In this document: one piece after another, positions 16,298-29,225 of the stretch
Position numbering within the stretch: position 1 is the stretch's first letter
Layout: each line of letters opens with the position of its first letter
Assembly: GCA_003597955.1 (NCBI GenBank)
Contig: QZJU01000020.1
Location: 62,001 to 126,000, forward strand
DNA length: 64,000 nt
Direction of reading: 5' to 3'
Origin: Candidatus Parcubacteria bacterium
GTDB taxonomy: Bacteria > Patescibacteriota > Patescibacteriia > PEXW01
Notes under the pieces: generated by a model
What the model was told of the DNA's origin: nothing
What the model saw: the letters and a program-made list of their open reading frames with translations, nothing else
Database searches by the model: none
Translations under genes and position numbers: made by a program

Positions 16298-16834
16298 CTA
16301 GGTCCGAATGGTAACTTTTCTTTTCTGCCAGGCTAAAACCAACTCCATTACGCCGAAAAATACCCCGGTGTAAAACAGATCGCCCAGCACAGTGTTTCGG
16401 AAAAACGGCAAGCCGTATTCATACGCCAATATCAATCCCGAAAAATTGAAGGCATAGAATTCGCCGTGATTGAAAAACCAGACCGCGGCATTGGTAACCA
16501 AAAAGAAAATCACTGAACCAAGCAAGATCCCGCCCGCGATTGTGTAAACATTTTTTTTCTTTCTAACAACCCGGCCGATTAGGCCCGACAAAATCATACA
16601 CCCCCAAGTGAAAAAAATTAGGTTATGCAAGCCCAAAAAGATGTCCGAAGCCATCATGGCCAGCACTGGCACGACAATGGAGGCGCGCTTGCCCAAATAT
16701 ACGCCGCTGAACATGGCCACGGCTGCCACGGGCGCGAAATTCGCCGGGTGAGGCAAAAATCTGGCCGCCACGGCAAAGGCAATCAAAATTCCGGCTGTAA
16801 GATTTTGGGTAGTAAGATATTTTTTAATCATCAT
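16298..16834 (-). CDS. DUF6580-like putative membrane transporter (ECF S-component-like)
   Basis: A 178-residue protein with about five or six helices, resembling the DUF6580 family of putative transport proteins, which look like substrate-binding (S) components of ECF vitamin transporters. Visible features are NFAPVAAVAMFSGVYLGKR, MASDIFLGLHN and NTVLGDLFYTGVFFG. It follows a B12-binding-like lipoprotein by 4 bases and both lie downstream of a cobalamin riboswitch. From this I infer cobalamin or cobinamide uptake. No ECF ATPase or EcfT gene is in the window; those subunits would have to be elsewhere. The family assignment is from memory of the pattern, not from a search. Confidence 0.7.
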   Translation of the reverse strand: MMIKKYLTTQNLTAGILIAFAVAARFLPHPANFAPVAAVAMFSGVYLGKRASIVVPVLAMMASDIFLGLHNLIFFTWGCMILSGLIGRVVRKKKNVYTIAGGILLGSVIFFLVTNAAVWFFNHGEFYAFNFSGLILAYEYGLPFFRNTVLGDLFYTGVFFGVMELVLAWQKRKVTIRT

Positions 16835-16838
16835 AAAA

Positions 16839-17243
16839 TTAAAAAGTGATTAATTTCCATTCGATTTGATCATCCGTCTTGGTTTGATATTGACCCGCGC
16901 CGACTGGTGCGGATTTTCCGTTAACATAAAAACCCCAATATTCTTTTTCGCCGGCCTCGCGGCCATTAATGCCGGTCACATATTCGCCCTGGCCCGAAGT
17001 TTTTGTGGTTACGCCTTGAAATTTGGACTTAAGCAATTCCAAAGCGGTTTTGCCAGCTTCGCCAACATAAGAAACGCTCGGCACGGCATTAGTGTTTTGC
17101 TGGCTGACATTGGCGTTTGCGGTATTGGTGTTGGCGTTTTGATTTAAATTTTGGTTTTGATTGGAAATTGGCGTACAAGCCACCAACGCAACAACTAAAA
17201 CAACCAAAAGGCCAAAGGGTTTGATAGAATTTATATAATTCAT
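16839..17243 (-). CDS. Lipoprotein with transcobalamin-C-terminal-like DUF4430 domain
   Basis: A 134-residue lipoprotein: signal peptide ending in the lipobox LVAC (Cys about residue 23), then an Asn-rich linker (NQNQNLNQNANTNTANAN), then a DUF4430 domain at about 60-134 (TALELLKSKFQG, GEYVTGINGREA, YWGFYVNGKSA, DDQIEWK). DUF4430 matches the C-terminal domain of transcobalamin and intrinsic factor, which covers bound B12. Placement 23 bases after the terminator of a cobalamin riboswitch makes a surface B12-binding role likely. It would pass ligand to the membrane protein encoded next. No convincing ribosome binding site is seen. Confidence 0.82.
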   Translation of the reverse strand: MNYINSIKPFGLLVVLVVALVACTPISNQNQNLNQNANTNTANANVSQQNTNAVPSVSYVGEAGKTALELLKSKFQGVTTKTSGQGEYVTGINGREAGEKEYWGFYVNGKSAPVGAGQYQTKTDDQIEWKLITF

Positions 17244-17265
17244 AAATTTTTTAAGGTTAAGAATT

Positions 17266-17450
17266 AAAAAAAGCCTGGCGGCTTCAGGTTAGCCGTCAGG
17301 AAAGATATCCGATCCTATTCGACCTTTTCCCGAAGGATTTGTCTTAATCCGCCGATGAGGCGGAAAGGCGTCGGACTCTCACGACCTTCCAGCAGGAAGG
17401 GCGGAATACCGTGGCGGGACCGTTCCGGATTCGCACCGGATTGCCTGGTT
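17266..17450 (-). ncRNA. Cobalamin riboswitch with intrinsic terminator
   Basis: On the minus strand the segment reads AGGCAATCCGGTGCGAATCC, then GGAACGGTCCCGCCACGG, which matches the conserved cobalamin aptamer core (GGUGnnAAUCCG and GGUCCCGCCACUG; the last bases are CGG here instead of CUG). GAGAGTCCGACGCCT follows at the expected place. The expression platform ends in a 9-pair hairpin (CCTGACGGC/GCCGCCAGG, plus-strand 17274-17300) and seven Ts, so B12 should stop transcription before the lipoprotein gene. This is the off-switch type usual for uptake genes. Confidence 0.88.
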
Positions 17451-17481
17451 AAATTGTTAAGTAAAAGAAAGATACCATACC

Positions 17482-17509
17482 TTGACAAAGCCCGCAAATT
17501 TGCTAGGCT
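17482..17509 (+). promoter_or_regulatory. Promoter of the 17558 gene
   Basis: TTGACA, 16 bases, TAGGCT. It lies back to back with the start of the riboswitch transcript on the other strand. Confidence 0.6.
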
Positions 17510-17557
17510 AATTTGAAAATTAAAAAATAACCAAAAACGACACAAAGGAGCTTGAAA

Positions 17558-18133
17558 ATGGGAAATACCCAATCCGAACGAACAATGCCTTATGCTTTGG
17601 AATTTCTGGGCAAAAACACAGATGAAATCACCAAGCAGGCTACCCAAATCTTGGGTGTTCTGGTTAATCTGCCGGAATACGACCGGAAGGATCGAAAAGG
17701 CGGGATTCTGACCCTTATGGGATTGCGCGGAAGTTTTCTGGTTGGGTTCGCCATTGGCGAAGTGCCAAAAAATGACCCGGCCAAGTATTACGAAATTGCT
17801 TGCAAGAAATGCCGCTTATTACACAATCTACATTATAATGACCATTTTTCCGACGAAAAAGAAAAACCGCCCATCAGTTCGTTTGTACGGCGAAATGAAA
17901 AGTATGAGATATACGGTGGCGGGATCCCTTTGGGTACGTTTTATTCCTCAGATCCTTGTAAATATAACTGTGGTTTTCTGGCCTTTTCCGGCCTGCCTGA
18001 ACTGGCTGATGAAGCCCTGGTTCTAGTGCTGGCGCTGGACATGGAGTGGATTAAATTAGACCTGGCGCGGGAGATCGCCCAGGCCTCAACAAATCCATAC
18101 TTTGAAGCTTTACTTAAAGCTTCTCGAGCGTAA
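17558..18133 (+). CDS. Hypothetical protein, 191 aa
   Basis: Complete single-gene unit with AAAGGAG 7 bases before the ATG and its own promoter and terminator. I recognise no family. The protein looks soluble. It has a Cys pair (ACKKCRLLH) near residue 85 and another pair (DPCKYNC) near residue 138, which could bind a metal together. The C-terminus is helical. It lies divergent from the B12-uptake transcript, sharing a roughly 300-base control region; that position is the only clue and does not prove a B12 role. Confidence 0.7.
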   Translation: MGNTQSERTMPYALEFLGKNTDEITKQATQILGVLVNLPEYDRKDRKGGILTLMGLRGSFLVGFAIGEVPKNDPAKYYEIACKKCRLLHNLHYNDHFSDEKEKPPISSFVRRNEKYEIYGGGIPLGTFYSSDPCKYNCGFLAFSGLPELADEALVLVLALDMEWIKLDLAREIAQASTNPYFEALLKASRA

Positions 18134-18150
18134 ATCACTATCGTTCCTAA

Positions 18151-18180
18151 AAGCGTCGCTTAACCAAGTGACGCTTTTTT
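18151..18180 (+). terminator. Terminator of the 17558 gene
   Basis: AGCGTCGCTT pairs with AAGTGACGCT (one G-U pair) around AACC, followed by TTTTT. Confidence 0.85.
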
Positions 18181-18190
18181 ATTATATAAA

Positions 18191-18218
18191 AAGTGGGAAG
18201 AAAATTTTTCTTCCCACT
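18191..18218 (-). terminator. Terminator of the 73 aa gene
   Basis: Arms GTGGGAAG and CTTCCCAC; the minus strand continues with TTTTTATA. It faces the preceding terminator, closing a convergent pair. Confidence 0.75.
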
Positions 18219-18222
18219 AAGT

Positions 18223-18444
18223 TTACTTTGTGACTCTTGTTTCGGCATCAAGATGACCGTTGATGGCGCTTATTACTAATAGCGAGAGAAACACAACACC
18301 CATAAGTAGACCTGGGACTTCCTTAATCAGCTTATTCAGAAAAACCTGATAAGGTTCCCAGAAAAGCAGCGGGTTCAGATCTGACGCTTGCAAAATAACC
18401 AACGAAGCCGCCAAACCAATTGCATAGAACAGTTTTCTCTTCAC
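18223..18444 (-). CDS. Small membrane protein, 73 aa
   Basis: Starts with GTG, 7 bases after a perfect AGGAGG. Two hydrophobic segments are visible: LFYAIGLAASLVILQA (5-20) and VPGLLMGVVFLSLLVISAING (43-63). A TTGACA-N17-TAAGCT promoter lies upstream on the minus strand (near 18500-18520). No family is recognised. The strong translation signal and private promoter and terminator argue that it is a real gene. Confidence 0.65.
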   Translation of the reverse strand: MKRKLFYAIGLAASLVILQASDLNPLLFWEPYQVFLNKLIKEVPGLLMGVVFLSLLVISAINGHLDAETRVTK

Positions 18445-18542
18445 TTACCTGCCTCCTATTTTTTTATTTTTTAGAACTTATGTAATGTCAGCTTAAGCTG
18501 TAGAGATGAAATTGTCAATGTAAAAAAATCAAGCTTGGAACA

Positions 18543-19118
18543 TCAATAATCAATCCCCTTCACGGCTAAGTACCCCTTATAAAAAGGGTGTTTAACCATT
18601 TTCATTTCCGTAATCAAGTCACAAAGCTTTGCCAGTCGTGGATATTTTTCGTGACCCGTAATTACCAAATGGATAGCTTTTAATTTTTTCGACCTGGCTT
18701 TAAGTTTCAGCAAATCAACAACTTGTTTTTCGGCCAACAAACCGACTTCTAAACATGAAACTATTTCATCGAGTATTACGACCTGATATTTCCCCGAGGC
18801 TAATAACCGCTTGGCTAAGCTAAGCGCCCGCACAGCCAAGCGCTGGTGTTCAGCAAATGATTTCCGGTCGCCCCAGATGCCAACAAAACCCGCCCCGTGA
18901 ATTTCAACTTTTACGCCCAGTTTTTCCAAGGAGATCCTTTCGCCGGAAGGCCATTTGGGATTTTTGAAAAATTGGAAAAACAAAACTTTCAAACCATAGC
19001 CAACGGCTCTGACCGCCAAACCAATAGCGGCAGTGGTTTTGCCCTTGCCTCGGCCCCAATAGTAAACATTTATACCTTGGGGAAAAACCTTTAATTTGGG
19101 AATAGATTTTTCTGGCAT
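18543..19118 (-). CDS. cobO: Corrinoid adenosyltransferase (CobO/CobA/BtuR type)
   Basis: A 191-residue P-loop enzyme that transfers the 5'-deoxyadenosyl group of ATP to cob(I)alamin or other corrinoids, making adenosylcobalamin. The P-loop is GRGKGKTTAAIGLAVRA (about 20-36), followed by VLFFQFFK, the conserved HGAGFVG region, and the Walker B stretch VVILDEIVSCLEVGLL, and LVITGHEK. Length is normal. No B12 synthesis gene is in the window, so it probably acts in salvage, feeding the B12-dependent reductase at 24.9-28.4 kb. It lies 1.3 kb downstream of the cobalamin riboswitch start but on its own transcript. Confidence 0.93.
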   Translation of the reverse strand: MPEKSIPKLKVFPQGINVYYWGRGKGKTTAAIGLAVRAVGYGLKVLFFQFFKNPKWPSGERISLEKLGVKVEIHGAGFVGIWGDRKSFAEHQRLAVRALSLAKRLLASGKYQVVILDEIVSCLEVGLLAEKQVVDLLKLKARSKKLKAIHLVITGHEKYPRLAKLCDLITEMKMVKHPFYKGYLAVKGIDY

Positions 19119-19170
19119 ACAAGCTTTGGCTTAATATAGCTTACTTAATGCCGCAAAAAAGCGCAAAATT

Positions 19171-19198
19171 TTGAAAAAAATAAAGTTTAAGGTATAAT
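19171..19198 (+). promoter_or_regulatory. Strong promoter upstream of candidate RNA
   Basis: TTGAAA, 16 bases, TATAAT. No coding frame follows, only a structured stretch. Confidence 0.65.
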
Positions 19199-19204
19199 AT
19201 TTTC

Positions 19205-19320
19205 GGAGAATCGCCGATAAAAGTCATTTCTCCAAAGCCCCTTAAACTTCGCTAGCGAATCCTAAAACTAACGAAGTGTTCCTTCATCCGCCTGCTCGCT
19301 CCCAACCGGGCAGGCTTCTT
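19205..19320 (+). ncRNA. Candidate small RNA, about 115 nt
   Basis: Begins after a strong promoter and ends at a hairpin GCCTGC/GCAGGC (19290-19315) followed by TTCTT. Inside, GGAGAA pairs with TTTCTCC and ACTTCG with CGAAGT. No open frame is present. Family not recognised; it could also be a leader of the RNA that follows. Confidence 0.4.
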
Positions 19321-19325
19321 CATGT

Positions 19326-19353
19326 TTGCTTTAACTAAAAACTGTCATATACT
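19326..19353 (+). promoter_or_regulatory. Promoter of the second candidate RNA
   Basis: TTGCTT, 16 bases, TATACT. Confidence 0.5.
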
Positions 19354-19359
19354 GATAGC

Positions 19360-19602
19360 AGATTACCTGATGGTTTAGAGCTCCTTTCCCGCTCAAGGAA
19401 GCACATGGAATGCGACCATCAGGATTTCCCAGGCCAAAAAACGCTTCAAAACACACGCTCGTTGTTTTTTAGGAAGCAATCGCCGTATCGGCCTCCCGGC
19501 CCAACTAAATGGGTGGGGTTGCATTCCAAATTTAGGGACTCGGCTTTTACAAAAGCCGCCTATCATTCCAAGCCCTCAATATCATTGAGGGCTTCTTTTT
19601 GC
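19360..19602 (+). ncRNA. Candidate structured RNA with pseudoknot, about 240 nt
   Basis: No coding frame. CCTGATGGT (19366-19374) pairs with ACCATCAGG (19415-19423). The segment TGGAATGC (19406-19413), inside that loop, is fully complementary to GCATTCCA (19521-19528), which gives a pseudoknot. Further hairpins are CGGCTTTT/AAAAGCCG and the terminator AAGCCCTCAAT/ATTGAGGGCTT plus CTTTTT (19570-19600). I looked for tmRNA, RNase P and SRP signatures and found none, so the family is unknown. Confidence 0.55.
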
Positions 19603-19678
19603 CATAGGTCGGGGCTTGACAATAACGCAAGACCATGCTAACCTTAGCGGTTTTGAAATTAAATTATTTTTATATTAT

Positions 19679-19813
19679 ATGGAAGAATTACAAGCGCACG
19701 CTGAAAGCATAATTTCACGAACCCAAACTAATGACTTGGGTTTAGATGGGGTGATTCAGGCTCTGGCCGAATTGCACGATGAGCTTAAAAAACACTCCGA
19801 AACTACGGCTTAA
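19679..19813 (+). CDS. Small orphan protein, 44 aa
   Basis: The frame is open from 19616, but a promoter (TTGACA 19616-19621, 17 bases, TAACCT) covers that part, so the first usable ATG is at 19679. The product (MEELQAHAESIISRTQ..., ELHDELKKHSETTA) is a short, acidic, mostly helical protein. No ribosome binding site is visible, so translation is uncertain. A strong terminator follows. First member of a run of small single-gene units. Confidence 0.5.
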   Translation: MEELQAHAESIISRTQTNDLGLDGVIQALAELHDELKKHSETTA

Positions 19814-19833
19814 GCTTAGAACTAAAAAACGAA

Positions 19834-19866
19834 AATCCCCTCTCGTTAAAATCAGGGGATTTTTTG
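19834..19866 (+). terminator. Terminator of the 44 aa gene
   Basis: AATCCCCT and AGGGGATT arms followed by TTTTT. Confidence 0.85.
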
Positions 19867-19891
19867 TACGAAAAATCTTGACCACACTCTT

Positions 19892-20000
19892 AACCCCGCA
19901 CCACTTTCCAAATTAAACCTTAAGTTTAGTGCAAGGTTGTTTGCCTAGTAAATATCTTAGTACTAAGTGTTGGCGCTTTACTGGAAAGTGGTGCGGGGTT
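19892..20000. repeat. Inverted repeat with 19-base perfect arms, next to a promoter
   Basis: AACCCCGCACCACTTTCCA (19892-19910) and its exact complement at 19982-20000 flank a 71-base AT-rich centre that holds smaller palindromes. The right arm runs straight into the TTGACA of the next gene. The inner part of the arms recurs at 50567-50609, again touching a TTGACA. Confidence 0.85.
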
Positions 20001-20027
20001 GACAAAAGCCATTTTTTGGCTTATGCT
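19999..20027 (+). promoter_or_regulatory. Promoter of the 20067 gene
   Basis: TTGACA, 17 bases, TATGCT. Its -35 overlaps the last two bases of the inverted repeat arm. Confidence 0.7.
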
Positions 20028-20066
20028 GTCTTGAAAATAAAGGTAAGCTTTTTTCAAGGAGGAAAA

Positions 20067-20288
20067 ATGCGGGTAAACTTCATACTGCATATGCAGAACG
20101 CCGTGGTTAACGGTAAGTCTTATGACGAATTGATAATTGATTGGTTCGAAGAAATGAACTGGGAAGAAGTTAATGCCGTTTCCCAGAAATGGCTAAAGGA
20201 TCACAATTTTTTGACCAGCCGGATGTCGGGCTTAACCCGAGTCAGTGATTCCAGTCTGAGCATAGAGCCGATGGAAGAAGCTAAGTAA
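20067..20288 (+). CDS. Small orphan protein, 73 aa (paralogue of 20451 gene)
   Basis: Starts at ATG 20067, 5 bases after AAGGAGG. The frame extends further upstream but through the promoter and repeat. The product begins MRVNFILHMQNAVVNG, has an acidic middle (IIDWFEEMNWEEVNAV) and ends in SSLSIEPMEEAK. It aligns over its whole length with the next gene (shared pattern VxFxL, IIxWxEE, WLxxxNxLTxRMxGLxxVxxxSLxIEP), so the two form a tandem family. No known domain recognised; small alpha/beta fold likely. Confidence 0.75.
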   Translation: MRVNFILHMQNAVVNGKSYDELIIDWFEEMNWEEVNAVSQKWLKDHNFLTSRMSGLTRVSDSSLSIEPMEEAK

Positions 20289-20294
20289 TTTTTT

Positions 20295-20321
20295 AACCCC
20301 CTTGAGGCTTTCTTGGGGGTT
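20295..20321 (+). terminator. Terminator fused to next -35
   Basis: AACCCCC and GGGGGTT arms; the T run continues directly as TTGACA (20322-20327). Confidence 0.8.
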
Positions 20322-20350
20322 TTGACAAAAATTTCGGTCCACGCTAGTGT
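20322..20350 (+). promoter_or_regulatory. Promoter of the 20451 gene
   Basis: TTGACA, 17 bases, TAGTGT, beginning inside the T run of the preceding terminator. Confidence 0.65.
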
Positions 20351-20450
20351 GAGGAGAAAATAAGAAACTTAACACTGTTCAGCAATCGGAACCGCTGAAT
20401 TCACCCGCGCATTGGATGCCCAAAAACTTATTTTAAAGAAAGGGCAAAAA

Positions 20451-20663
20451 TTGCAGGTGAAATTCAAACTCATTATGGACGGCTTGCTGGTTATGGGCAA
20501 TTGGTTGGATCGGGTAATTATCGAGTGGGAAGAAGAAGCCGACGAGGTCCGCGTCCAGGAAATCGCCAATGAATGGCTAACAACCCGGAATTACTTAACC
20601 CAAAGAATGCTGGGATTACATTCCGTAGCCGAGGCAAGCCTGACTATTGAACCGCAAGAATGA
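20451..20663 (+). CDS. Small orphan protein, about 70 aa (paralogue of 20067 gene)
   Basis: Paralogue of the gene before it. Aligned to that gene, the protein should start at TTG 20451 (LQVKFKLIMDGLLV...), with AAAGGG 6 bases upstream; a TTG at 20412 in the same frame is also possible. There is no in-frame ATG at the expected place. A good GAGGAG at 20351-20356 is followed by ATAAGA rather than a start codon, so the original start may have been lost or moved. The C-terminus SLTIEPQE matches its sister. May be a weakly translated or decaying copy. Confidence 0.6.
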   Translation: MQVKFKLIMDGLLVMGNWLDRVIIEWEEEADEVRVQEIANEWLTTRNYLTQRMLGLHSVAEASLTIEPQE

Positions 20664-20680
20664 TCTCTTTAACCTTTTTG

Positions 20681-20710
20681 GCCTGCCTGGATTCTCCGGC
20701 AGGCTTTTTT
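20681..20710 (+). terminator. Terminator of the 20451 gene
   Basis: GCCTGCC and GGCAGGC arms followed by TTTTTT. Confidence 0.85.
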
Positions 20711-20785
20711 GTTTGGTTTCAGCTTGACTTTATATCAAACCTCATTTAAATTTAATTTTCCAAAAACCAGAATCATGGAGGATGA

Positions 20786-20989
20786 ATGGATATTGACACC
20801 TTACAAAAAGCTGTTCGCGACAAAAAGGTCCCGAATGCGGAAATCGTGAAAAAACTCAATGCTTACCTAAAAAGCCGGCATTCCACCGGTGGCTTGATCG
20901 GGTTTTTGCACATCTTGGAAAAGCACCGACCAGGCCTTTTTAAACAAATCCATCAGGCCATTCGGCAAAAAGCAAAGGGATTCAAATAA
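20786..20989 (+). CDS. Small orphan protein, 67 aa
   Basis: GGAGG lies 4 bases before ATG 20786; a TTGACT-N17-TAAATT promoter lies upstream. The product is basic and helical (MDIDTLQKAVRDKKVPN..., HRPGLFKQIHQAIRQKAKGFK). No family recognised. Its charge would suit nucleic-acid binding, but that is a guess. Own terminator follows. Confidence 0.65.
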   Translation: MDIDTLQKAVRDKKVPNAEIVKKLNAYLKSRHSTGGLIGFLHILEKHRPGLFKQIHQAIRQKAKGFK

Positions 20990-21004
20990 AATACGTTCAG
21001 TTTT

Positions 21005-21042
21005 AACCCCTCTGAAAGTAAGTTAAAGAGGGGTTTTTATTT
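21005..21042 (+). terminator. Terminator fused to next -35
   Basis: AACCCCTCT and AGAGGGGTT arms, then TTTATTTT, then TTGACA (21043-21048) for the next gene. Confidence 0.8.
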
Positions 21043-21113
21043 TTGACAAACCTTTGGGTATTTGAGAAAATATAGTAAACAAACTGAACATTGCAAAAAA
21101 CGGAGGGCATAAC

Positions 21114-21527
21114 ATGGCCAACCCGGATGTTGAGCTAAAAAAATTCTGCCAAGAAATAAACCAAATTCTTGCCAAAGCCAAGCCGGAAGAACGCCAAAAC
21201 TCAATCTTGGATCTTTATCGAACATACGCCAAGCGGGAAGAAAACTCCAAGATCGTGCCGGATTTGACCACGATTACCTGCCGGTGCGTTTCGGCGGACT
21301 GCATTATTCTGGAAGCCATTGAAAAACCGCAAATTCCAGATGAGCTTATCGAAAGATTCTTTTTTGAAGCCGTGGGCGGTTTAGAGACTGAGGAATTACG
21401 CAAAGCTTTCAAGCTTTTAAAGCTGTATCGTTACAAGGCTTTTGATTCCGTGGTGAATAAATATTTGATCCTCAAAGACCAAGAGGAATTTTTCGGCGAC
21501 CTGATTAAGCCGCATTCTCGGGCCTGA
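21114..21527 (+). CDS. Orphan protein, 137 aa
   Basis: CGGAGGG precedes ATG 21114. The product is soluble and mostly helical, with two nearby cysteines in TCRCVSADC that could bind metal. The second half (LIERFFFEAVGGLETEEL, LLKLYRYKAFDSVVNKYL) looks like paired helices. No family recognised. It is a single-gene unit with its own TTGACA promoter and terminator. Confidence 0.7.
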   Translation: MANPDVELKKFCQEINQILAKAKPEERQNSILDLYRTYAKREENSKIVPDLTTITCRCVSADCIILEAIEKPQIPDELIERFFFEAVGGLETEELRKAFKLLKLYRYKAFDSVVNKYLILKDQEEFFGDLIKPHSRA

Positions 21528-21536
21528 AAAATTTGT

Positions 21537-21563
21537 AAAGCCCCGAGCAAACTTGGGGCTTTT
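21537..21563 (+). terminator. Terminator of the 21114 gene
   Basis: AAGCCCC and GGGGCTT arms followed by TTATATTT; a TTTACA follows within a few bases and may be the next -35. Confidence 0.8.
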
Positions 21564-21633
21564 ATATTTACAAAGTTTAATACCCAGTGTAAGTTAAGAT
21601 TATAAAAAAAATACCAAAATTCCTGGAGGAACA

Positions 21634-21960
21634 ATGCACTTTACTTTATTCTGGCTTTCCGTCAGCGCCGTATCTATTGTTTGTCTTTTTCGCATCGATA
21701 AACACTTCCAAAAAAAAGCGCTACAAACCCGCCGGCAAACGCTTTACAAAAACTTGTTTCTGACAGCACAGTTCTTGACGATTTTTTTCGTCATTTCTGC
21801 GCTTCAATTTCTGGTTTTTGATGCCGGGGCCTATAGCAATTTCATGAGCGCTTTGGCTTGCGCCTTGCTGGTCTGTCTAATCGGTTTCAGAGCTGACTCT
21901 CGGGCTTTTTATTGCAGGGTTGAAAAATTGCGGGAGGAGATTTCGACCACCAGAGTATAA
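21634..21960 (+). CDS. Small membrane protein, 108 aa (paralogue of 22076 gene)
   Basis: GGAGG precedes ATG 21634. Three hydrophobic segments: LFWLSVSAVSIVCLF, LFLTAQFLTIFFVISALQFLVF, and FMSALACALLVCLIGF. The cytoplasmic tail ADSRAFYCRVEKLREEIS matches the tail of the next gene (SDSKEFISAVEKLQQN), and the spacing of membrane segments is the same, so both belong to one small family. Function unknown. Confidence 0.7.
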   Translation: MHFTLFWLSVSAVSIVCLFRIDKHFQKKALQTRRQTLYKNLFLTAQFLTIFFVISALQFLVFDAGAYSNFMSALACALLVCLIGFRADSRAFYCRVEKLREEISTTRV

Positions 21961-21967
21961 CTTTAAT

Positions 21968-22002
21968 ATGACCCAAGAAAATTCTTCAAGGGTCATTTTT
22001 TA
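21968..22002 (+). terminator. Terminator of the 21634 gene
   Basis: ATGACCC and GGGTCAT arms followed by TTTTTT. Confidence 0.75.
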
Positions 22003-22075
22003 ATCCCTTCTTGACCAAACCACAGAATTAAGATAAGGTTATGTAAAATAAAACAAAAAAATAAGGAGGTTTTAA

Positions 22076-22432
22076 ATGCTCCTTTCAATTACCTATGTCT
22101 TGTGTTTGATTTTGGCATGCACACTCGCTCTTTTCTGCGCTTATGTGATGAGGCCCTGGTTCCACCGCAAGGCTGTAACCAAAGCTAAAGTGAAGCCTTT
22201 CCTCGGCTTTTTCTTGCTGCTGCAATTCCTGCTCTTATTCTTGTTCTTTATTTTTGGCCATCTACTTGCGGAACAAATGGGTTGGATAGACGAAGAAGGG
22301 TGGGTTATTAACTTGGTCGTCTCGCTTATCGGAGCAGCGGCTATCTGTTTACCTTTTCTAAAAAGCGATTCTAAGGAATTTATTTCAGCCGTGGAAAAAC
22401 TGCAGCAAAACGCGATGGGCATAAGCCAATGA
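22076..22432 (+). CDS. Small membrane protein, 118 aa (paralogue of 21634 gene)
   Basis: AAGGAGG precedes ATG 22076. Three hydrophobic segments: ITYVLCLILACTLALFCAYVM, GFFLLLQFLLLFLFFIFGHLL, and LVVSLIGAAAICLPFL, then the shared tail SDSKEFISAVEKLQQ. Compared with its neighbour it has an added acidic loop (EQMGWIDEEGW) before the last helix. No known family. Tandem duplication of a small membrane gene is the simplest history. Confidence 0.7.
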   Translation: MLLSITYVLCLILACTLALFCAYVMRPWFHRKAVTKAKVKPFLGFFLLLQFLLLFLFFIFGHLLAEQMGWIDEEGWVINLVVSLIGAAAICLPFLKSDSKEFISAVEKLQQNAMGISQ

Positions 22433-22442
22433 CCCCCCTTTA

Positions 22443-22478
22443 AATGACCATTTGAAGATTCAGATGGTCATTTTTTTT
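22443..22478 (+). terminator. Terminator of the 22076 gene
   Basis: AATGACCAT and ATGGTCATT arms followed by TTTTTT. TTGACA for the next gene lies about 10 bases further on. Confidence 0.85.
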
Positions 22479-22549
22479 CAAGGGTTGACAAAATTTTTTA
22501 AAGTATTAAATTTTTTCCATAAAACCAGAAACCAAAAAAGGAGTTTTAA

Positions 22550-22924
22550 ATGGCATTAATACCCTTGACCGAACACAAGGATTGGCCGCTGCATGTCAGA
22601 ATCTGGAATCTGACTGCCGAAGAAATTGCCGAGCACGCCAAGGATTTGGAAACACGCATTTGGAACAATTTCGGCTTCGCCTTGGGGTATGACAGCTCCA
22701 AACACGACATTTTATTCTCTTTCCCCACCGAGGCCGGCTTGGAAGCCAGCGCTGAAATCCCCATCCGGATTGAAATTGCCATCCGGCACAAAGCCAAGGG
22801 TCTTGCGCTTGACCGGCACCTTAAAGCCATACTGCGCGAAAGGTCGGGGTGCGTCGCTCAACGCATCAAAAAGTGGAAAAATCGGCAGGATGTTCCGATT
22901 ATTTTTGACCTTAGCACTCCTTAA
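22550..22924 (+). CDS. Orphan protein, 124 aa
   Basis: GGAG precedes ATG 22550; a TTGACA lies about 65 bases upstream. The product (MALIPLTEHKDWPLHVRIWN...) is soluble, with an acidic first helix (AEEIAEHAKDLETRIW) and a basic C-terminal part (RHKAKGLALDRHLKAILRERSG, RIKKWKNR). No family is recognised. Last of the plus-strand run of single-gene units before the minus-strand gene at 23.0-24.0 kb. Confidence 0.7.
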   Translation: MALIPLTEHKDWPLHVRIWNLTAEEIAEHAKDLETRIWNNFGFALGYDSSKHDILFSFPTEAGLEASAEIPIRIEIAIRHKAKGLALDRHLKAILRERSGCVAQRIKKWKNRQDVPIIFDLSTP

Positions 22925-22933
22925 GTTTTTTTA

Positions 22934-22962
22934 AAGAGCGATCCAGCTGGATCGCTCTTATT
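22934..22962 (+). terminator. Terminator of the 22550 gene
   Basis: A perfect 26-base palindrome (AAGAGCGATCC and its complement around AGCT), followed by ATT. Confidence 0.75.
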
Positions 22963-22969
22963 GCTATAA

Positions 22970-22999
22970 AAAAAGGACTGCCACCAGGCAATCCTTTTC
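22970..22999 (-). terminator. Terminator of the 23005 gene
   Basis: AAAGGATTGCC and GGCAGTCCTTT arms on the minus strand, with TTTT following. Confidence 0.75.
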
Positions 23000-23004
23000 A
23001 ATGA

Positions 23005-23955
23005 TCAAAACAAACTGACTTTCTGGTTATCCTGATACTGCTGGGCACGCTCCGCTTCATTGAGCGCAGACCAACCAGCAGTCAGGTCAACTACGAGTGA
23101 CCGGATTTCTTCCACTGTGCCGCTCATGCTGTGCAGGCCAACATTGTAGTATTCGCCTTCAGCAACCGCAAAGGTCAGATCGTGTGAGCCGCGTTGCAAA
23201 GTCAAAGCGACTCTGCCCGCGGCCACCCAGCTCATGAGCTCCACACCGTTAAAGGTGCCGGACATGCCACGTATTTTTGACCTATCAATAAGCGCCTTCA
23301 GTCCCTTCGCATAAACCTGCGTGCTAAATTCCTTGGCGATCTTGTTAAGCTCAGCGTGAAATCGCTGCACATCTGGCCGCTCAGGGCGACAACCCAAAAT
23401 AATTACATCAATCATTCGCTCAATGGGTACATTTTTGCTGAGGTCTGTCGAGACCAGGAGCTCATACCACCCGCACTTTGGCGCCTGATAAATAATTATC
23501 TCCAGATCAGTCCCTTGGTACTCACCCAGGTTGCTTGCCGCAGTGAGCACATCCTGCTCTTTGTGCCAGGTAAGAACGCTTAGCAAAATAATCCGATTGA
23601 TAGCCGGCAATTTCGATGTGCGGGCAAGCAGCAGATCAATGCAGAACGCCTTGCGGAAATCCTTATAAGCGATTTCGTCGTTAATAGCGCCATTCGCTTC
23701 AACAAAGAAAAGAAATTGGTACCGCGTAGCGACGCAACCTTTCCGAAGGGTTTCATCATTGAACGGAGCAACATAATTTCGCTCGCCATCAGCAATCTCT
23801 GCGTAACTGTACAGGAACGCAGGATCAGCCCGTTGGACTAAAATGCTAGTCCGGTGCGCTGGGCCGTCGCCGCGTTTAAAACGCTCAATAATATGCTTGA
23901 GCTCTGGGAACTGCGCTTGCAGCTGCTGCACGCGCTTGGGTGTTTGGTACCGCAT
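23005..23955 (-). CDS. Hypothetical protein, 316 aa, possibly acquired
   Basis: Starts at ATG 23955, 6 bases after a perfect AAAGGAGGT; a GTG at 23973 overlaps that site and is unlikely. The product (MRYQTPKRVQQLQAQF...) is soluble; no known domain is recognised. It uses CAG and GAG codons more than its neighbours, which prefer CAA and GAA, and its GC content looks higher, so it may have been acquired. The leader carries two hairpins with identical GGAAG loops. Promoter: TTGACA-N17-TAAATT on the minus strand near 24055-24085. Confidence 0.7.
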   Translation of the reverse strand: MRYQTPKRVQQLQAQFPELKHIIERFKRGDGPAHRTSILVQRADPAFLYSYAEIADGERNYVAPFNDETLRKGCVATRYQFLFFVEANGAINDEIAYKDFRKAFCIDLLLARTSKLPAINRIILLSVLTWHKEQDVLTAASNLGEYQGTDLEIIIYQAPKCGWYELLVSTDLSKNVPIERMIDVIILGCRPERPDVQRFHAELNKIAKEFSTQVYAKGLKALIDRSKIRGMSGTFNGVELMSWVAAGRVALTLQRGSHDLTFAVAEGEYYNVGLHSMSGTVEEIRSLVVDLTAGWSALNEAERAQQYQDNQKVSLF

Positions 23956-23979
23956 GTGGGTACCTCCTTTCACATCCGC

Positions 23980-24032
23980 TCTGGCCTTCCGCCAGAATTG
24001 GTTTTAGGATAACCAGCCAGCCTTCCGCTGGC
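23980..24032 (-). promoter_or_regulatory. Twin leader hairpins with GGAAG loops
   Basis: On the minus strand, GCCAGC-GGAAG-GCTGGC (24016-24032) and TCTGGC-GGAAG-GCCAGA (23980-23996) stand in tandem just upstream of the ribosome binding site of the 316 aa gene. Loop sequence and loop closing pair are the same, stems differ, which points to selection on the loop. Confidence 0.65.
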
Positions 24033-24189
24033 CGAGTGTCAAAGAACAGTCTGCCGAATTTAACAAAGTTTAATTTCTTTGTCAATACTATGACTAAAGC
24101 CTGTTATTATCTTTAGACAGTATTACGGTTTGATAAATCCTTTGTTTCTATCTTAATTATCTTGTGCTATTCTAAAAAAACTTCCCATA

Positions 24190-24385
24190 AAGAAAGCCGT
24201 TCGGCCAATTGGGCCTGGAGTAATAACGGTCTATAAGGTTCTTTTAAAAACTTTATAAGAAGATTATTAAGTTCCTTGGGGCAAGAATACCCCGTATCTC
24301 GTGGGGTTTCCAGGCCCAGAAAAAATAGCCGTCATACCTTTTGACTGATTTTTCTTAAAGAGCGACCGGTTTGTTGCTCGTTCTT
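24190..24385 (+). ncRNA. Candidate structured RNA in a 560-base gene-free stretch
   Basis: TGGGCCTGGA (24210-24219) is the exact complement of TCCAGGCCCA (24309-24318). Nested inside are TAATAA/TTATTA and TATAAGGTT/AACTTTATA. Three G/C runs near 24280-24306 (GGGG, CCCC, GGGG) can pair in two exclusive ways. A hairpin GAGCGA/TTGCTC with a following T-rich run (24360-24388) could be the terminator. No coding frame is seen, and the downstream gene has its own promoter, so this is probably a separate RNA. Rod-like shape recalls 6S RNA, but identity is unproven. Confidence 0.4.
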
Positions 24386-24516
24386 TATTTTCTACTTTAA
24401 ATTGACAAAATTATCTTGTTAGGATAAAGTCATCTATTAAAATTGAACATTAAAAGCGAGGTTTGTACATGATTCAAAACACGAAAGAAATTGAAATCCT
24501 AAAAGGAGGAATACTA

Positions 24517-24699
24517 ATGAGCCTATGTCCAGTTTGTGGAAGAGCGTACTGTGATCACACCCCAAAAGAACGCGGGCAGACTGAAGTGGAAATGACGCGC
24601 CCGCTTACTGACGAAGAGCAGAAAGTCTGGGAAGAAGAGCCGGATGGCTCCCTAAAAAAAATCGCGGTTGCTAAAAAGCATGCTCATGACCCAGTCTGA
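24517..24699 (+). CDS. Small zinc-ribbon-like protein, 60 aa
   Basis: The ATG at 24517 follows AAAGGAGG by 7 bases. An in-frame ATG at 24469 would add MIQNTKEIEILKGGIL, but its binding site is weaker and the added peptide is encoded by the ribosome-binding region itself. The N-terminus holds a CPVCGRAYCDH cluster that should bind one metal ion, followed by an acidic, probably disordered tail. TTGACA-N17-TAAAGT promoter at about 24402. Function unknown. Confidence 0.65.
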   Translation: MSLCPVCGRAYCDHTPKERGQTEVEMTRPLTDEEQKVWEEEPDGSLKKIAVAKKHAHDPV

Positions 24700-24711
24700 C
24701 ACACGACCTTT

Positions 24712-24742
24712 AAGAGCGGACCTTACCGGCCCGCTCTTTTTT
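24712..24742 (+). terminator. Terminator of the 60 aa gene
   Basis: AAGAGCGG and CCGCTCTT arms followed by TTTT. Confidence 0.85.
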
Positions 24743-24850
24743 CATTTTGTCATTGCAACGACTAACGCCGCGATTCCACAAGGGTAAGTGAGGCTGTTGT
24801 CACCGCAGAGCGGGATCCCGCCCATAAATTTTAATAAAGGGTGCGGGAAA

Positions 24851-24876
24851 AGGGAAAACCGTTCAAGGTTTTCCCT
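24851..24876 (-). terminator. Hairpin after nrdJ
   Basis: AGGGAAAACC and GGTTTTCCCT arms 8 bases past the nrdJ stop. The following T run is short, so the hairpin may protect the mRNA end instead of stopping transcription. Confidence 0.55.
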
Positions 24877-24883
24877 ACAAATT

Positions 24884-27800
24884 TTAACTACACCCTGTGG
24901 TTTCCCCGCAATCCAAACAAAGGATGCAGGTGCCGTTTCTTTTCATTTTCATGCTCCCGCAGGCGGCGCACTGGTCGCCGGTGTAGCCCTGCTGCCGGGC
25001 TTCGTCTTTGGAATGCATGCCAAAGGTCACATTGCTGGCGACGGCTTCGGAAATGTTCACTTTGGGCACATTCATGGGCAAAGGCTCTTGCACGGCTTTG
25101 GGTTTGTTTTCCATCTGCGGCGTGGTGTCGGGCTTCACATGCACTAAATCTGTCCGGCCCAAGTATTCAAAGCCCAAAATCCGGAAAACATAATCCAAAA
25201 TCGAAGTAGCCATTTTTACATTCTCATGGCCTTGTACCGGGCCGGCGGGTTCAAAGCGGGTGTAAGTGAAAGTGTCCACATATTCTTCCAGCGGTATGCC
25301 GTATTGCAAACCTTTGGAAATAGAAATGGCGAACATGGAAAGCAAGCTGCGGTAGGCCGTGCCTTCTTTGTACATGTCAATGAAGATTTCGCCCAAACGA
25401 CCGTCGGGATATTCACCCGTGCGCAAATAGACTTTATGGCCGCCGACATAGGATTTCTGCACAAAACCCCGGCGCTTGTTGGGCAAAGCCATTCTAACGA
25501 TCTGGCCGGCCACAGCGTCGGAAACCTGTTTGGGCGTCACGGCTTCGTTTATCTCCTCGGCCTTGGTTTCGGTTTGACCTAATTCGTCCAGACCCGCTAC
25601 AGAATTCAAAGGCTGGGAAAGCTTGGAGCCGTCGCGGTACAATGCTACGGCTTTGAGCATGTATTTCCAGCTTTTGGTGTAGGCATCGGAAATGTCTTTG
25701 ATGCTAGCTTCGTTGGGCATGTTAATGGTTTTGGAAATTGCGCCTGAAAGAAAAGGCTGGGTGGCGGCCATCATTTTCAAATGCGCGTCATAAGCAATAA
25801 AACGTTTGCCTTTGACCCCGCATTTGTTGGCGCAATCAAAAACGGGGTAATGTTCTGGCTTGAGGTGCGGCGCGCCTTCCACCGTCATGGCGCCGCAGAC
25901 ATACTCATTAGCCTCGTTAATCTGCGCTTCCGTAAAGCCCAGGGCTTTTAAAACATTCAGTTCATGATCAGCCAGCTGTTCTTCGCTTAAACCGACTTTT
26001 TTCAAAACTTCTTCGCCCAGGGCATAGGGCGTGAAAGCGAAACGAATGTCAAAAGCGGTTTTTAAATTCTGCTCGATGGCCTGTAGGGCCGAATCGCTAA
26101 AGCCTTTGGCGCGCAGAATTTCCGGGTTTATGCTGGGGCAACCCTGCAAGCTGCCGTGGCCTTTAGCGTAATTTTCAATATCCTGAATCTGCTGTTCGGT
26201 ATAGCCCAGGCGCTTTAAAGCCAAATCCAAAGATTGATTGACGATCTTAAAAAAGCCGCCGCCCGCCAATTTCTTAAATTTCACCATGGCAAAATCCGGC
26301 TCGACGCCGGTGGTATCGCAATCCATAATCAGGCCAATGGTGCCGGTGGGCGCGATAAGCGTAGTCTGCGCATTGCGAAAACCATATTTCTCGCCCAAAG
26401 TAATGGCCCGATCCCAGGCTTCTCGCGTAGCAGCAACCAAATATGCCGGGCTGGCTGCGGGATCAATGCCGGCGGGTTTAATGCTTAAATTTTCATATTC
26501 ATCCTCGGGCGCATTGTAGGCGGCTCGGCGGTGGTTGCGTATCACCCGCAGCATATGCCGCTTGTTCCGTTCGTAGGCCGGAAAAGCGCCCAAAGCGCTG
26601 GCCATCTCCGCCGAAGTGGCATAAGCCTCGCCGGTCATAATCGCCGTCAGGTTCGCGGCCACTGCTCGGCCTTCTTCCGAATCATACGGAATGCCGAGCA
26701 TCATCAAAACCGTGCCCAGATTGGCATAGCCCAACCCCAAGGTGCGGTATTCATAACTCTTGCGCGCAATTTCCCGGCCGGGAAATTGCGCCATCAGAAC
26801 CGAGATTTCCAAAGTAATCGTCCAGAGCCTGATGCTGTGCCGGAAGCTGTCCAAATCAAAAACCCCGGTTTCCGTGTTCAAATACTTAGTCAGATTCATG
26901 GAAGCCAGGTTGCAGGCCGTGTCGTCTAAAAACATATATTCACTGCAGGGGTTAGAGCCGTTTATCCGGCCGTCTTCCGGACAGGTGTGCCATTCATTAA
27001 CCGTGGTATCAAATTGCAAACCCGGATCCGCGCAAGACCAAGCCGCAAAAGAAATCTGATCCCACAAATCCCGGGCGGAAATAGTCTTGGTGACTGCGTC
27101 ATCAAGCCGCCTTCTTAAATTCCAAGGCGCATTGGCTTTGACCGCATCCATAAATTCATTGGTGACCCGGACGGAATTATTGCTGTTTTGGCCGGAAACA
27201 GTTTGGTAGGCTTCGCCTTCAAAATGTGTGTCAAAAACCGGGAAGTCAATGCTGGTTTTGCCCTGCTTGACCAAATCCAAAACCCGCACAATGTAATTTA
27301 AAGGCACGTGGTGGTTAATAGCTTGCTGGACAACATTTTTTAGCTTGGGAGAAGCATTAATTTTGGTAACGCCCTCGGCTTTAGCAACTTGCATAATTTC
27401 ATTTAGGAATCTGGCGTTAATTTTGCTGCCGGCAACCAAATCGGCGACCTTCTGTTCTTCTTTCGCTTTCCAATTCACATATTCTTCAATGTCCGGATGA
27501 TCCGCATTTACGATGACCATTTTGGCAGCCCGCCGCGTGGTGCCGCCGCTTTTGATCGCGCCCGCAGCTTTATCAAAAATCTGCAAAAAAGACATTAATC
27601 CCGAGGAAGTGCCGCCGCCGCTTAATTTTTCGCCTTTGCCCCGGATATCTGAAAAATTACTGCCCGTGCCCGAACCAAATTTAAAAAGCCTGGCTTCTCG
27701 GGTGACTAAATCAAAAATCCCACCTTCATTAACCAAATCGTCCTTAATACTCTGAATAAAGCAGGCGTGCGGCTGGGGGTGAGTGTAAGCATCTTCGGAT

Positions 27801-28381
27801 TTTTTTAATTCACCAGTCGTGGGCTCGACATAATAGTGCCCTTGAGGCTTGCCGGTTATGCCATAAGCAACTTGCAAACCCGTGTTAAACCATTGTGGCG
27901 AATTCGGCGCGCCCATCTGTCGTATTAAAATATGCTCCATTTCATTTTCATACGCCTCGGCGTCTTCGGCTGAAGCAAAATAACCATGACTCTCGCCCCA
28001 CCAGCGCCAACATACAGCCAAACGCTTGACCACTTGTTTTGCGCTCCGTTCCGAACCTAAAATCGGGTTACCTTGAGCGTCCAGCTTTGACTTGCCGTCA
28101 TCATCAAGCATCGGCACATCGCTTTTCCGGAAATATTTTTGGGCCAGGATGTCTGTGGCCACTTGGGACCAAAAGCTCGGCACTTCCACGTCTTTGATTT
28201 CATAAATAATCCGACCGTCGGGATTTTTGATAATTGACGAGCGTTTTTCGTAAATAATCTGCTCTAATGGATCGACCCCGGGCGAGGTGTAGCGACGCTT
28301 AATTCGCAAACCGGTTGGCGGATATTCAAAAACCCTAACCTCGGTTTGAGTCTTGGTTTCCCTTAAATTCGCCTGGGGCAT
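24884..28381 (-). CDS. nrdJ: Adenosylcobalamin-dependent (class II) ribonucleotide reductase
   Basis: A 1165-residue reductase of the large, zinc-ribbon-bearing NrdJ group that makes deoxyribonucleotides using adenosylcobalamin, independent of oxygen. Visible signatures: [21 protein letters not shown] (active-site region), [23 protein letters not shown] (substrate and effector region), and [27 protein letters not shown]. The C-terminus is a CAACGS...CILCLDC ribbon and TTGCS tail, which should renew the active-site disulfide. It follows nrdR by 47 bases, under a promoter with NrdR boxes. It is the only reductase in the window and the likely main consumer of the B12 imported and adenosylated by genes at 16-19 kb. 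Confidence 0.97.
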
Positions 28382-28428
28382 AAGCTTATTTAAAAGTTAA
28401 TAATGAATTATTTGATTTTTTTGAAAAT

Positions 28429-28908
28429 TTAATGACGGTTTTTGCCTTTGGCCCGACGGGGCTTCAATAAATCGTGGAGTTCCCTTTGAAAAGTCTCGAC
28501 GTCTTTAAATGATCGATAGACAGAAGCAAAACGGATGTAAGCTACCTGATTTGCCCTTTTTAGGTGCCGCATGACAATTTCGCCAATCTCTTTGGATTTA
28601 ATCTCGGTCCGGCCGATAATCTGGATATCCCGCTCGATGCGGTTCACTAGCCGCTTGAATTCGTCCTGGGTAATCGACAATTTCTGAAAAGACCGCCTTA
28701 AACCGGTTTCCAGCTTTTCACGGCTGTAGGGTTCGTGCCGGCCGTCCCTTTTGACCACGCTGAGGTTCAAAATTTCAGTCTGTTCAACCGTGGAGAACCG
28801 AAAACCGCACTTTTCGCATTCCCTTCGGCGGCGAATCGTCATACCGTCTTCGATTAGCCGGGAATCCATGACCCGAGTATCTGGTTTATGACAAGCTGGG
28901 CACTTCAT
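28429..28908 (-). CDS. nrdR: Transcriptional repressor NrdR
   Basis: A 159-residue repressor of reductase genes. The N-terminal zinc ribbon has CPACHK...CEKCGFRFST (four Cys), followed by the ATP-cone domain (VVKRDGRHEPYSREKLETGL) that senses ATP/dATP. Length and arrangement are normal. It leads a two-gene operon with nrdJ and lies downstream of a promoter that carries two NrdR boxes, so it should repress itself and the reductase when dATP is high. The leader is about 280 bases long. Confidence 0.97.
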   Translation of the reverse strand: MKCPACHKPDTRVMDSRLIEDGMTIRRRRECEKCGFRFSTVEQTEILNLSVVKRDGRHEPYSREKLETGLRRSFQKLSITQDEFKRLVNRIERDIQIIGRTEIKSKEIGEIVMRHLKRANQVAYIRFASVYRSFKDVETFQRELHDLLKPRRAKGKNRH

Positions 28909-29169: not shown

Positions 29170-29225
29170 AATACTATATGTTGTGGTATGTATCCTAAGT
29201 ATACCACTACATATAGTATTGTCAA
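29170..29225 (-). promoter_or_regulatory. nrdR-nrdJ promoter with paired NrdR boxes
   Basis: The minus strand reads TTGACA (29220-29225), 16 bases, TATACT (29198-29203). A near-perfect inverted repeat with 20-base arms (29170-29189 and 29201-29220, one mismatch) covers it. Each arm holds an NrdR-box-like 16-mer (ACTATATGTTGTGG and CCACTACATATAGT). One box fills the -35/-10 spacer exactly; the other lies just past the start site, centres 33 bases (about three helical turns) apart. Confidence 0.88.

Follow-up and report, generated by a model that had tools for sequence, protein, structure and literature searches.

A DUF4430 lipoprotein and a DUF6580 membrane protein as a putative B12 import pair in Patescibacteria

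Closest described systems of B12 import

The ECF-CbrT cluster of Lactobacillales brings together four functions, i.e. a B12-dependent ribonucleotide reductase (RNR), a DUF4430 protein, a B12 S-component and a corrinoid adenosyltransferase. ECF-CbrT (6FNP) is a proven B12 transporter, and in L. delbrueckii the genes are laid out as nrdJ-cbrS-cbrT-pduO with cbrS as the putative DUF4430 counterpart (PMC5997447). In a protein table of L. rhamnosus, there is an entry for an "additional lipoprotein component of putative cobalamin ECF transporter" (PMC9963975), and on lactobacillar and enterococcal plasmids (L194-L196) the genes for NrdJ, the adenosyltransferase, DUF4430 and the B12 S-component lie side by side. 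For BtuM, which does without an ECF module, trapping by BtuR has been put forward (PMC6072759).

The window, i.e. the whole stretch of 64,000 nucleotides of a Candidatus Parcubacteria genome that was analysed, holds the same four functions as the ECF-CbrT cluster. However, lactobacilli possess the ECF module, while none was found in the window genome; CbrT belongs to the Pfam family ECF_trnsprt, while the S-component of the window belongs to DUF6580, the two being homologous; the adenosyltransferase is PduO-type in lactobacilli (L194) but CobO-type in the window; and the custom riboswitch model R1 (below) gave no riboswitch in four lactobacillar/enterococcal loci. BtuM (8ovv, 8c7p) resembles the window system in its S-component fold and, as judged from the genomes, in the lack of an ECF module and an adenosyltransferase nearby, but its invariant Co-binding Cys80 (PMC6072759) has no conserved counterpart in DUF6580. 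BtuCDF with BtuB serves the same task, and in one ignavibacterial locus DUF6580 goes together with a BtuB-like receptor; however, BtuCDF includes a FecCD permease, while the window genome is without one. Finally, the beta domain of transcobalamin, haptocorrin and intrinsic factor is alike in fold to DUF4430, with about 30% identity to human transcobalamin over 77 columns, whereas transcobalamin has an alpha/alpha barrel and the window protein is bacterial, membrane-anchored and without the barrel.

Because lactobacilli carry the nrdJ-cbrS-cbrT-pduO-type layout, a DUF4430 protein next to a B12 S-component already has a precedent and is not a new idea. Thus, the suggestion in an earlier note on this DNA that an importer made of DUF4430 and DUF6580 would be little described stands for the assignment of DUF6580 and falls for the combination of DUF4430 with a B12 S-component. 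What is new is DUF6580 as an S-component, the lack of an ECF module and the distribution of the system across Patescibacteria, and also the larger proteins combining DUF4430 with a barrel in the same loci and the BtuB-like receptor with DUF6580 under a riboswitch in Ignavibacteria. In the open-licence PMC literature searched, DUF6580 is unmentioned and nothing was found on Patescibacteria or CPR together with cobalamin, RNR or riboswitches.

The locus, its riboswitch and its B12 user

The source genome (0.99 Mb, 98.5% complete) is Kerfeldbacteria-like, and at this locus Candidatus Kerfeldbacteria (L114) comes closest among the named relatives, with a DUF6580 protein that is 74% identical. On the minus strand, the order from 5' to 3' is nrdR, nrdJ, several unrelated small ORFs, cobO, an opposite-strand ORF (17552-18133), the riboswitch, the DUF4430 gene and the DUF6580 gene. 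Only the DUF4430-DUF6580 pair, with a gap of 4 bp between the two genes, lies directly behind the riboswitch; cobO and nrdR-nrdJ are upstream of the pair on the same strand, with nrdJ about 6 kb beyond cobO. All parts of the B12 circuit that the earlier note had described as complete in one region were found, but they are neighbours rather than a single operon, cobO and nrdJ not being in one operon with the pair. Between the opposite-strand ORF and a small membrane ORF, two adjoining strong inverted repeats with T-runs (18142-18230) look terminator-like on both strands, and between cobO and nrdJ, small ORFs of similar appearance form two tandem pairs (19929-20663 and 21634-22432) that gave no Pfam match.

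The aptamer core of the cobalamin (AdoCbl-type) riboswitch, at 17361..17451 on the minus strand, matches RF00174 with 25 bits (E 0.0016, 17377-17442). This is below the Rfam gathering score of 31.5, and since a search at gathering level missed the element, we built the custom model R1, which gives 72 bits in the window, itself one of the sequences on which R1 was trained. In an alignment of ten leaders from the class with a three-helix structure (P4, P5, P6 core), 99% of the cells are standard pairs and two-sided changes occur in 6/10 pairs, while pairing drops to 24-46% in shifted controls. Conservation of the leader extends to three more genomes from the same family. An intrinsic terminator, CCTGACGGCT...AGCCGCCAGG-CTTTTTTT (17266..17300, minus strand), is the expression platform and lies before the ATG of the lipoprotein; the hairpin and T-run form in all four family members, and changes in the stem keep the pairing. 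Because of the covariation, the conservation of the leader in relatives and the terminator in all four members, the riboswitch is real despite its RF00174 score below the cut-off, and the earlier claim of a cobalamin riboswitch holds. An L13-like hairpin, CCTTCGGGAAAAGG (17323..17336, minus strand), is also kept in all four family members, and its CGGGA (17328-17332) is complementary to the UCCCG of the L5 loop, which lies within GGTCCCGCC (17413-17421, minus strand) as part of the aptamer core. These motifs would form a kissing loop, as expected for a cobalamin riboswitch. That the terminator sits immediately ahead of the ATG points to an OFF switch at the level of transcription, operated by adenosylcobalamin.

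The adenosyltransferase and the RNR with its repressor, both named in the earlier note, are established by their profile scores. CobO, an ATP:corrinoid adenosyltransferase of the CobO/BtuR type (191 aa, 18543..19118, minus strand), matches PF02572 with E 6.1e-50. NrdJ, the adenosylcobalamin-dependent class II RNR (1165 aa, 24884..28381, minus strand), scores 1812 bits with NF005736 (cut-off 1737) and 603 bits with TIGR02504 (cut-off 400), and the NrdR repressor (159 aa, 28429..28908, minus strand) scores 173.6 bits with TIGR00244 (cut-off 124.65). Residues 304-368 of NrdJ also give a weak match to the YebC/TACO1 N-terminal domain (E 2.6e-4). NrdJ is the only RNR matched by the TIGR02504 profile in its genome, and the B12-binding domain PF02310 was not found there. 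The promoter region of nrdR-nrdJ (29171..29225, minus strand) has a -35 element TTGACA at 29220-29225 and a -10 element TATACT at about 29198-29203, and two NrdR-box-like sites (29204-29219 and 29171-29186, minus strand) upstream of nrdR-nrdJ, not mentioned in the earlier note, overlap or follow this consensus promoter. At three mismatches, the window holds three NrdR-box-like matches versus 0.43 expected, and two of these are the sites at the nrdR-nrdJ promoter. Therefore, control is probably divided, with NrdR acting on the B12 user and the riboswitch on the importer.

The lipoprotein and the membrane protein

The DUF4430 protein (134 aa, 16839..17243, minus strand; PF14478 E 1.2e-17) has the layout of a lipoprotein, with a lipobox LVAC (Cys23), an Asn-rich linker and a transcobalamin beta domain at residues 54-134; by Pfam it contains DUF4430 only, and the alpha/alpha barrel domain is absent. 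Trp103 is invariant in DUF4430. A profile comparison matches DUF4430 to transcobalamin-1 with E 1.5e-6. The structural model matches 5no0, 5np4 and 4zrp with Z about 10 and 29-31% identity, and 5np4 is the isolated transcobalamin beta domain with cyanocobalamin bound. In Foldseek, the top 19 hits are transcobalamin, haptocorrin, intrinsic factor or 3u7z, and VIA Z is about 9-10 for those matches and then falls to 4. A point against a B12-specific reading is that 3u7z, a protein annotated as metal-binding, also holds DUF4430. The lipobox, the Pfam match and the predicted beta domain agree with the earlier description of a lipoprotein with a transcobalamin-like DUF4430 domain, and we propose that it is a putative surface B12 capture protein.

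In several other loci (L057, L058, L134, L152, L130 and others), the riboswitch is followed first by a gene for a protein of about 580-980 aa and then by the small gene for DUF4430 or DUF6580. Several of these large proteins combine DUF4430 with alpha-toroid domains resembling squalene cyclases/prenyltransferases, and one matches the Pfam family "Eukaryotic cobalamin-binding protein". By domain content, the proteins with DUF4430 and an alpha-toroid look like full bacterial transcobalamins.

The membrane protein that the earlier note had placed in DUF6580 (178 aa, 16298..16834, minus strand) belongs to this family with PF20221 E 8e-45. In an hmmsearch of the DUF6580 profile against all PDB sequences, the sole match was 6fnp_A (CbrT; E 6.5e-6), and hhalign against four lactobacillar CbrT-like proteins gave 94.1% and E 1.3e-7 over 143 columns. 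The profile gave no match to the BtuM sequence, and tblastn with the window protein gave no match on plasmids. NCBIfam has no model that matches this protein, nor one for the CbrT-like proteins of lactobacilli or for DUF4430 of L. plantarum. The AlphaFold2 model (pLDDT 93) has the ECF S-component fold: the first Foldseek match is BtuM with hydroxycobalamin (8ovv), and S-components fill ranks 1-8, each with probability 1.00. VIA Z is 14.6 to 12.4 for many S-components, with BtuM at 14.2-14.3 and CbrT at only 9.1; because many S-components score alike and CbrT scores so low, the fold alone does not single out B12. By fold and sequence homology, DUF6580 is predicted to be a CbrT-like ECF S-component, and we propose that the window protein is a putative B12 permease. 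A cysteine chemistry of the BtuM type was rejected because no cysteine is conserved, i.e. no Cys column in the DUF6580 alignment exceeds 24/58, and the column of Cys79 of the window protein has Cys in 7/58 and mostly Ser.

In a diverged DUF6580 subgroup (L024-L028), the motif PNVETxTA stands in place of PHxPNFxPxAA, and RF00174 riboswitches above the Rfam cut-off were found in three of the five genomes. In two Bacteroidetes (L165, L178), the DUF6580 genes lie near a gene for an MgtE-type transporter (mgtE; Pfam checked for L165), and in the stretch examined no riboswitch, BtuB or DUF4430 was seen. Here, DUF6580 possibly has another role, and the missing B12 context counts against a B12 permease.

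Conservation of the pair and a model for B12 scavenging

In a sample of 57 genomes of the class, DUF6580 is present in 27 and DUF4430 in 26, and all 26 genomes with DUF4430 also have DUF6580 (Fisher p 2e-15). Thus, the pairing expected by the earlier note is conserved in relatives, with the two genes adjacent in 23/26 genomes (exceptions G007, G023 and G043). RF00174 riboswitches occur in 17/26 pair genomes vs 0/31 others (p 2e-8). Among 80 named loci across Patescibacteria and some Bacteroidota, Ignavibacteria and Omnitrophota, four of which are also in the class set, there are 58 riboswitch matches; 53 of these are on the strand of DUF6580 and no more than 4 kb upstream of it, a region making up 11% of the search space (p about 1e-45). 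Of the 55 loci with 4 kb of sequence available upstream, 46 have a riboswitch there. The leaders used to train R1 came from these loci, and therefore R1 counts lean towards them, while RF00174 alone is unbiased. By position, control of the pair by cobalamin riboswitches is established. The reading also survived when we asked whether relatives usually carry the pair without a B12 riboswitch or NrdJ, an adenosylcobalamin-dependent RNR being present in 26/26 pair genomes. An RNR of the TIGR02504 type scores over the cut-off in 24/26 pair genomes, G002 being counted by a truncated RNR gene, vs 13/31 others, and the two remaining pair genomes have an RTPR-type RNR on the same contig. CobO is found in 20/26 pair genomes vs 8/31 others. 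Two points count against the reading: six pair genomes are without CobO, and 13 class genomes have a class II RNR without the pair, so that other B12 routes must exist.

In six loci from Ignavibacteria, Bacteroidota and an Omnitrophota MAG (L166, L170, L159, L145, L179 and L160), a B12 riboswitch, a TonB-dependent receptor and DUF6580 occur together without DUF4430, and the best family for the L166 receptor is TonB-B12. In Ignavibacteria, the same riboswitch precedes the BtuB-like receptor and DUF6580.

Based on these data, we suggest that the locus is a B12 scavenging module with riboswitch control, capture by DUF4430, transport by DUF6580 alone and trapping by CobO and NrdJ, a reading in which we have high confidence. 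The minimal B12 import pair proposed in the earlier note is strongly supported by the conserved pairing, the position of the riboswitch, the B12-dependent RNR in all pair genomes and the predicted CbrT/BtuM-like and transcobalamin-like folds. We infer the following steps, in which B12 is the substrate, is handed over between the two proteins, crosses the membrane without ATP and is then trapped. At low adenosylcobalamin, transcription would pass the terminator and the pair would be made, as judged from the anatomy of the leader. The DUF4430 lipoprotein, a transcobalamin lid domain on a membrane anchor, would capture the corrinoid at the cell surface and hand it to DUF6580, the CbrT-like S-component, which would carry it across the membrane, alone and like BtuM, by facilitated transport. 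CobO would then adenosylate the corrinoid and NrdJ would bind it, making transport one-way.

The source of energy is the point on which the leading alternative differs. In this alternative, an ABC-type module encoded at another place in the genome, either diverged or shared, would energise DUF6580 as a true ECF S-component, and DUF4430 would be an accessory lipoprotein as in lactobacilli. The homology to CbrT and the use of such a pair together with an ECF module in lactobacilli (PMC5997447) speak for it, but EcfT (PF02361) is absent from the source genome and from 57/57 class genomes, and from 48/50 further genomes behind the named loci (present in two), while the same profile found a match in 10/14 well-known genomes used as a positive control, and BtuM is a proven case of an S-component that works on its own (PMC6072759). 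We therefore regard an ABC-energised DUF6580 as unlikely. Because no EcfT-type module was found, DUF6580 most likely works alone, probably as BtuM does. The earlier note had called for a check of the full genome for BtuCDF or ECF ATPase machinery, and neither FecCD nor EcfT was found. Import by BtuCDF was rejected since the source genome has no FecCD-type permease (BtuC, PF01032), and import of the BacA/SbmA type was rejected since no such permease gene was found there, ABC_membrane_2 giving no match in this genome.

It is very improbable that the permease carries another AdoCbl-regulated substrate (e.g. cobalt) or a corrinoid precursor (e.g. cobinamide) instead of cobalamin. B12 riboswitches also control cobalt transporters, and cobalt/nickel S-components have the same fold (4m58 vs the DUF6580 model, Z 11.5). 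Moreover, cobinamide is also among the ligands of CbrT and of BtuM (PMC5997447, PMC6072759). However, the sequence homology of DUF6580 is to CbrT and not to the metal S-components, its partners are a transcobalamin-like domain or BtuB, and CbiQ was absent in the same PF02361 search. That the genes adjoin by chance, as the separation of cobO and nrdJ from the operon of the pair in the window might hint, is scarcely credible given the conservation across the class, with the p of 2e-15 for the pairing and an RNR within about 12 kb of DUF6580 in 17/26 pair genomes, often in compact runs (e.g. the order nrdJ-cobO-riboswitch-DUF4430-DUF6580 in G015, G036, G044 and G056).

Returning to the B12 scavenging module, we moderately favor the broader proposal that DUF6580 and DUF4430 are a widespread ATP-independent B12 importer of Patescibacteria, in which an anchored transcobalamin lid would load a solitary S-component and intracellular adenosylation would drive uptake, while in Bacteroidota and Ignavibacteria the same permease would take B12 from BtuB. 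This proposal gives DUF6580 a likely function and suggests how many reduced CPR cells get the B12 needed by their ribonucleotide reductase. It would also link animal transcobalamin to bacterial B12 capture and may provide, after BtuM, a second test case for S-components without an ATPase.
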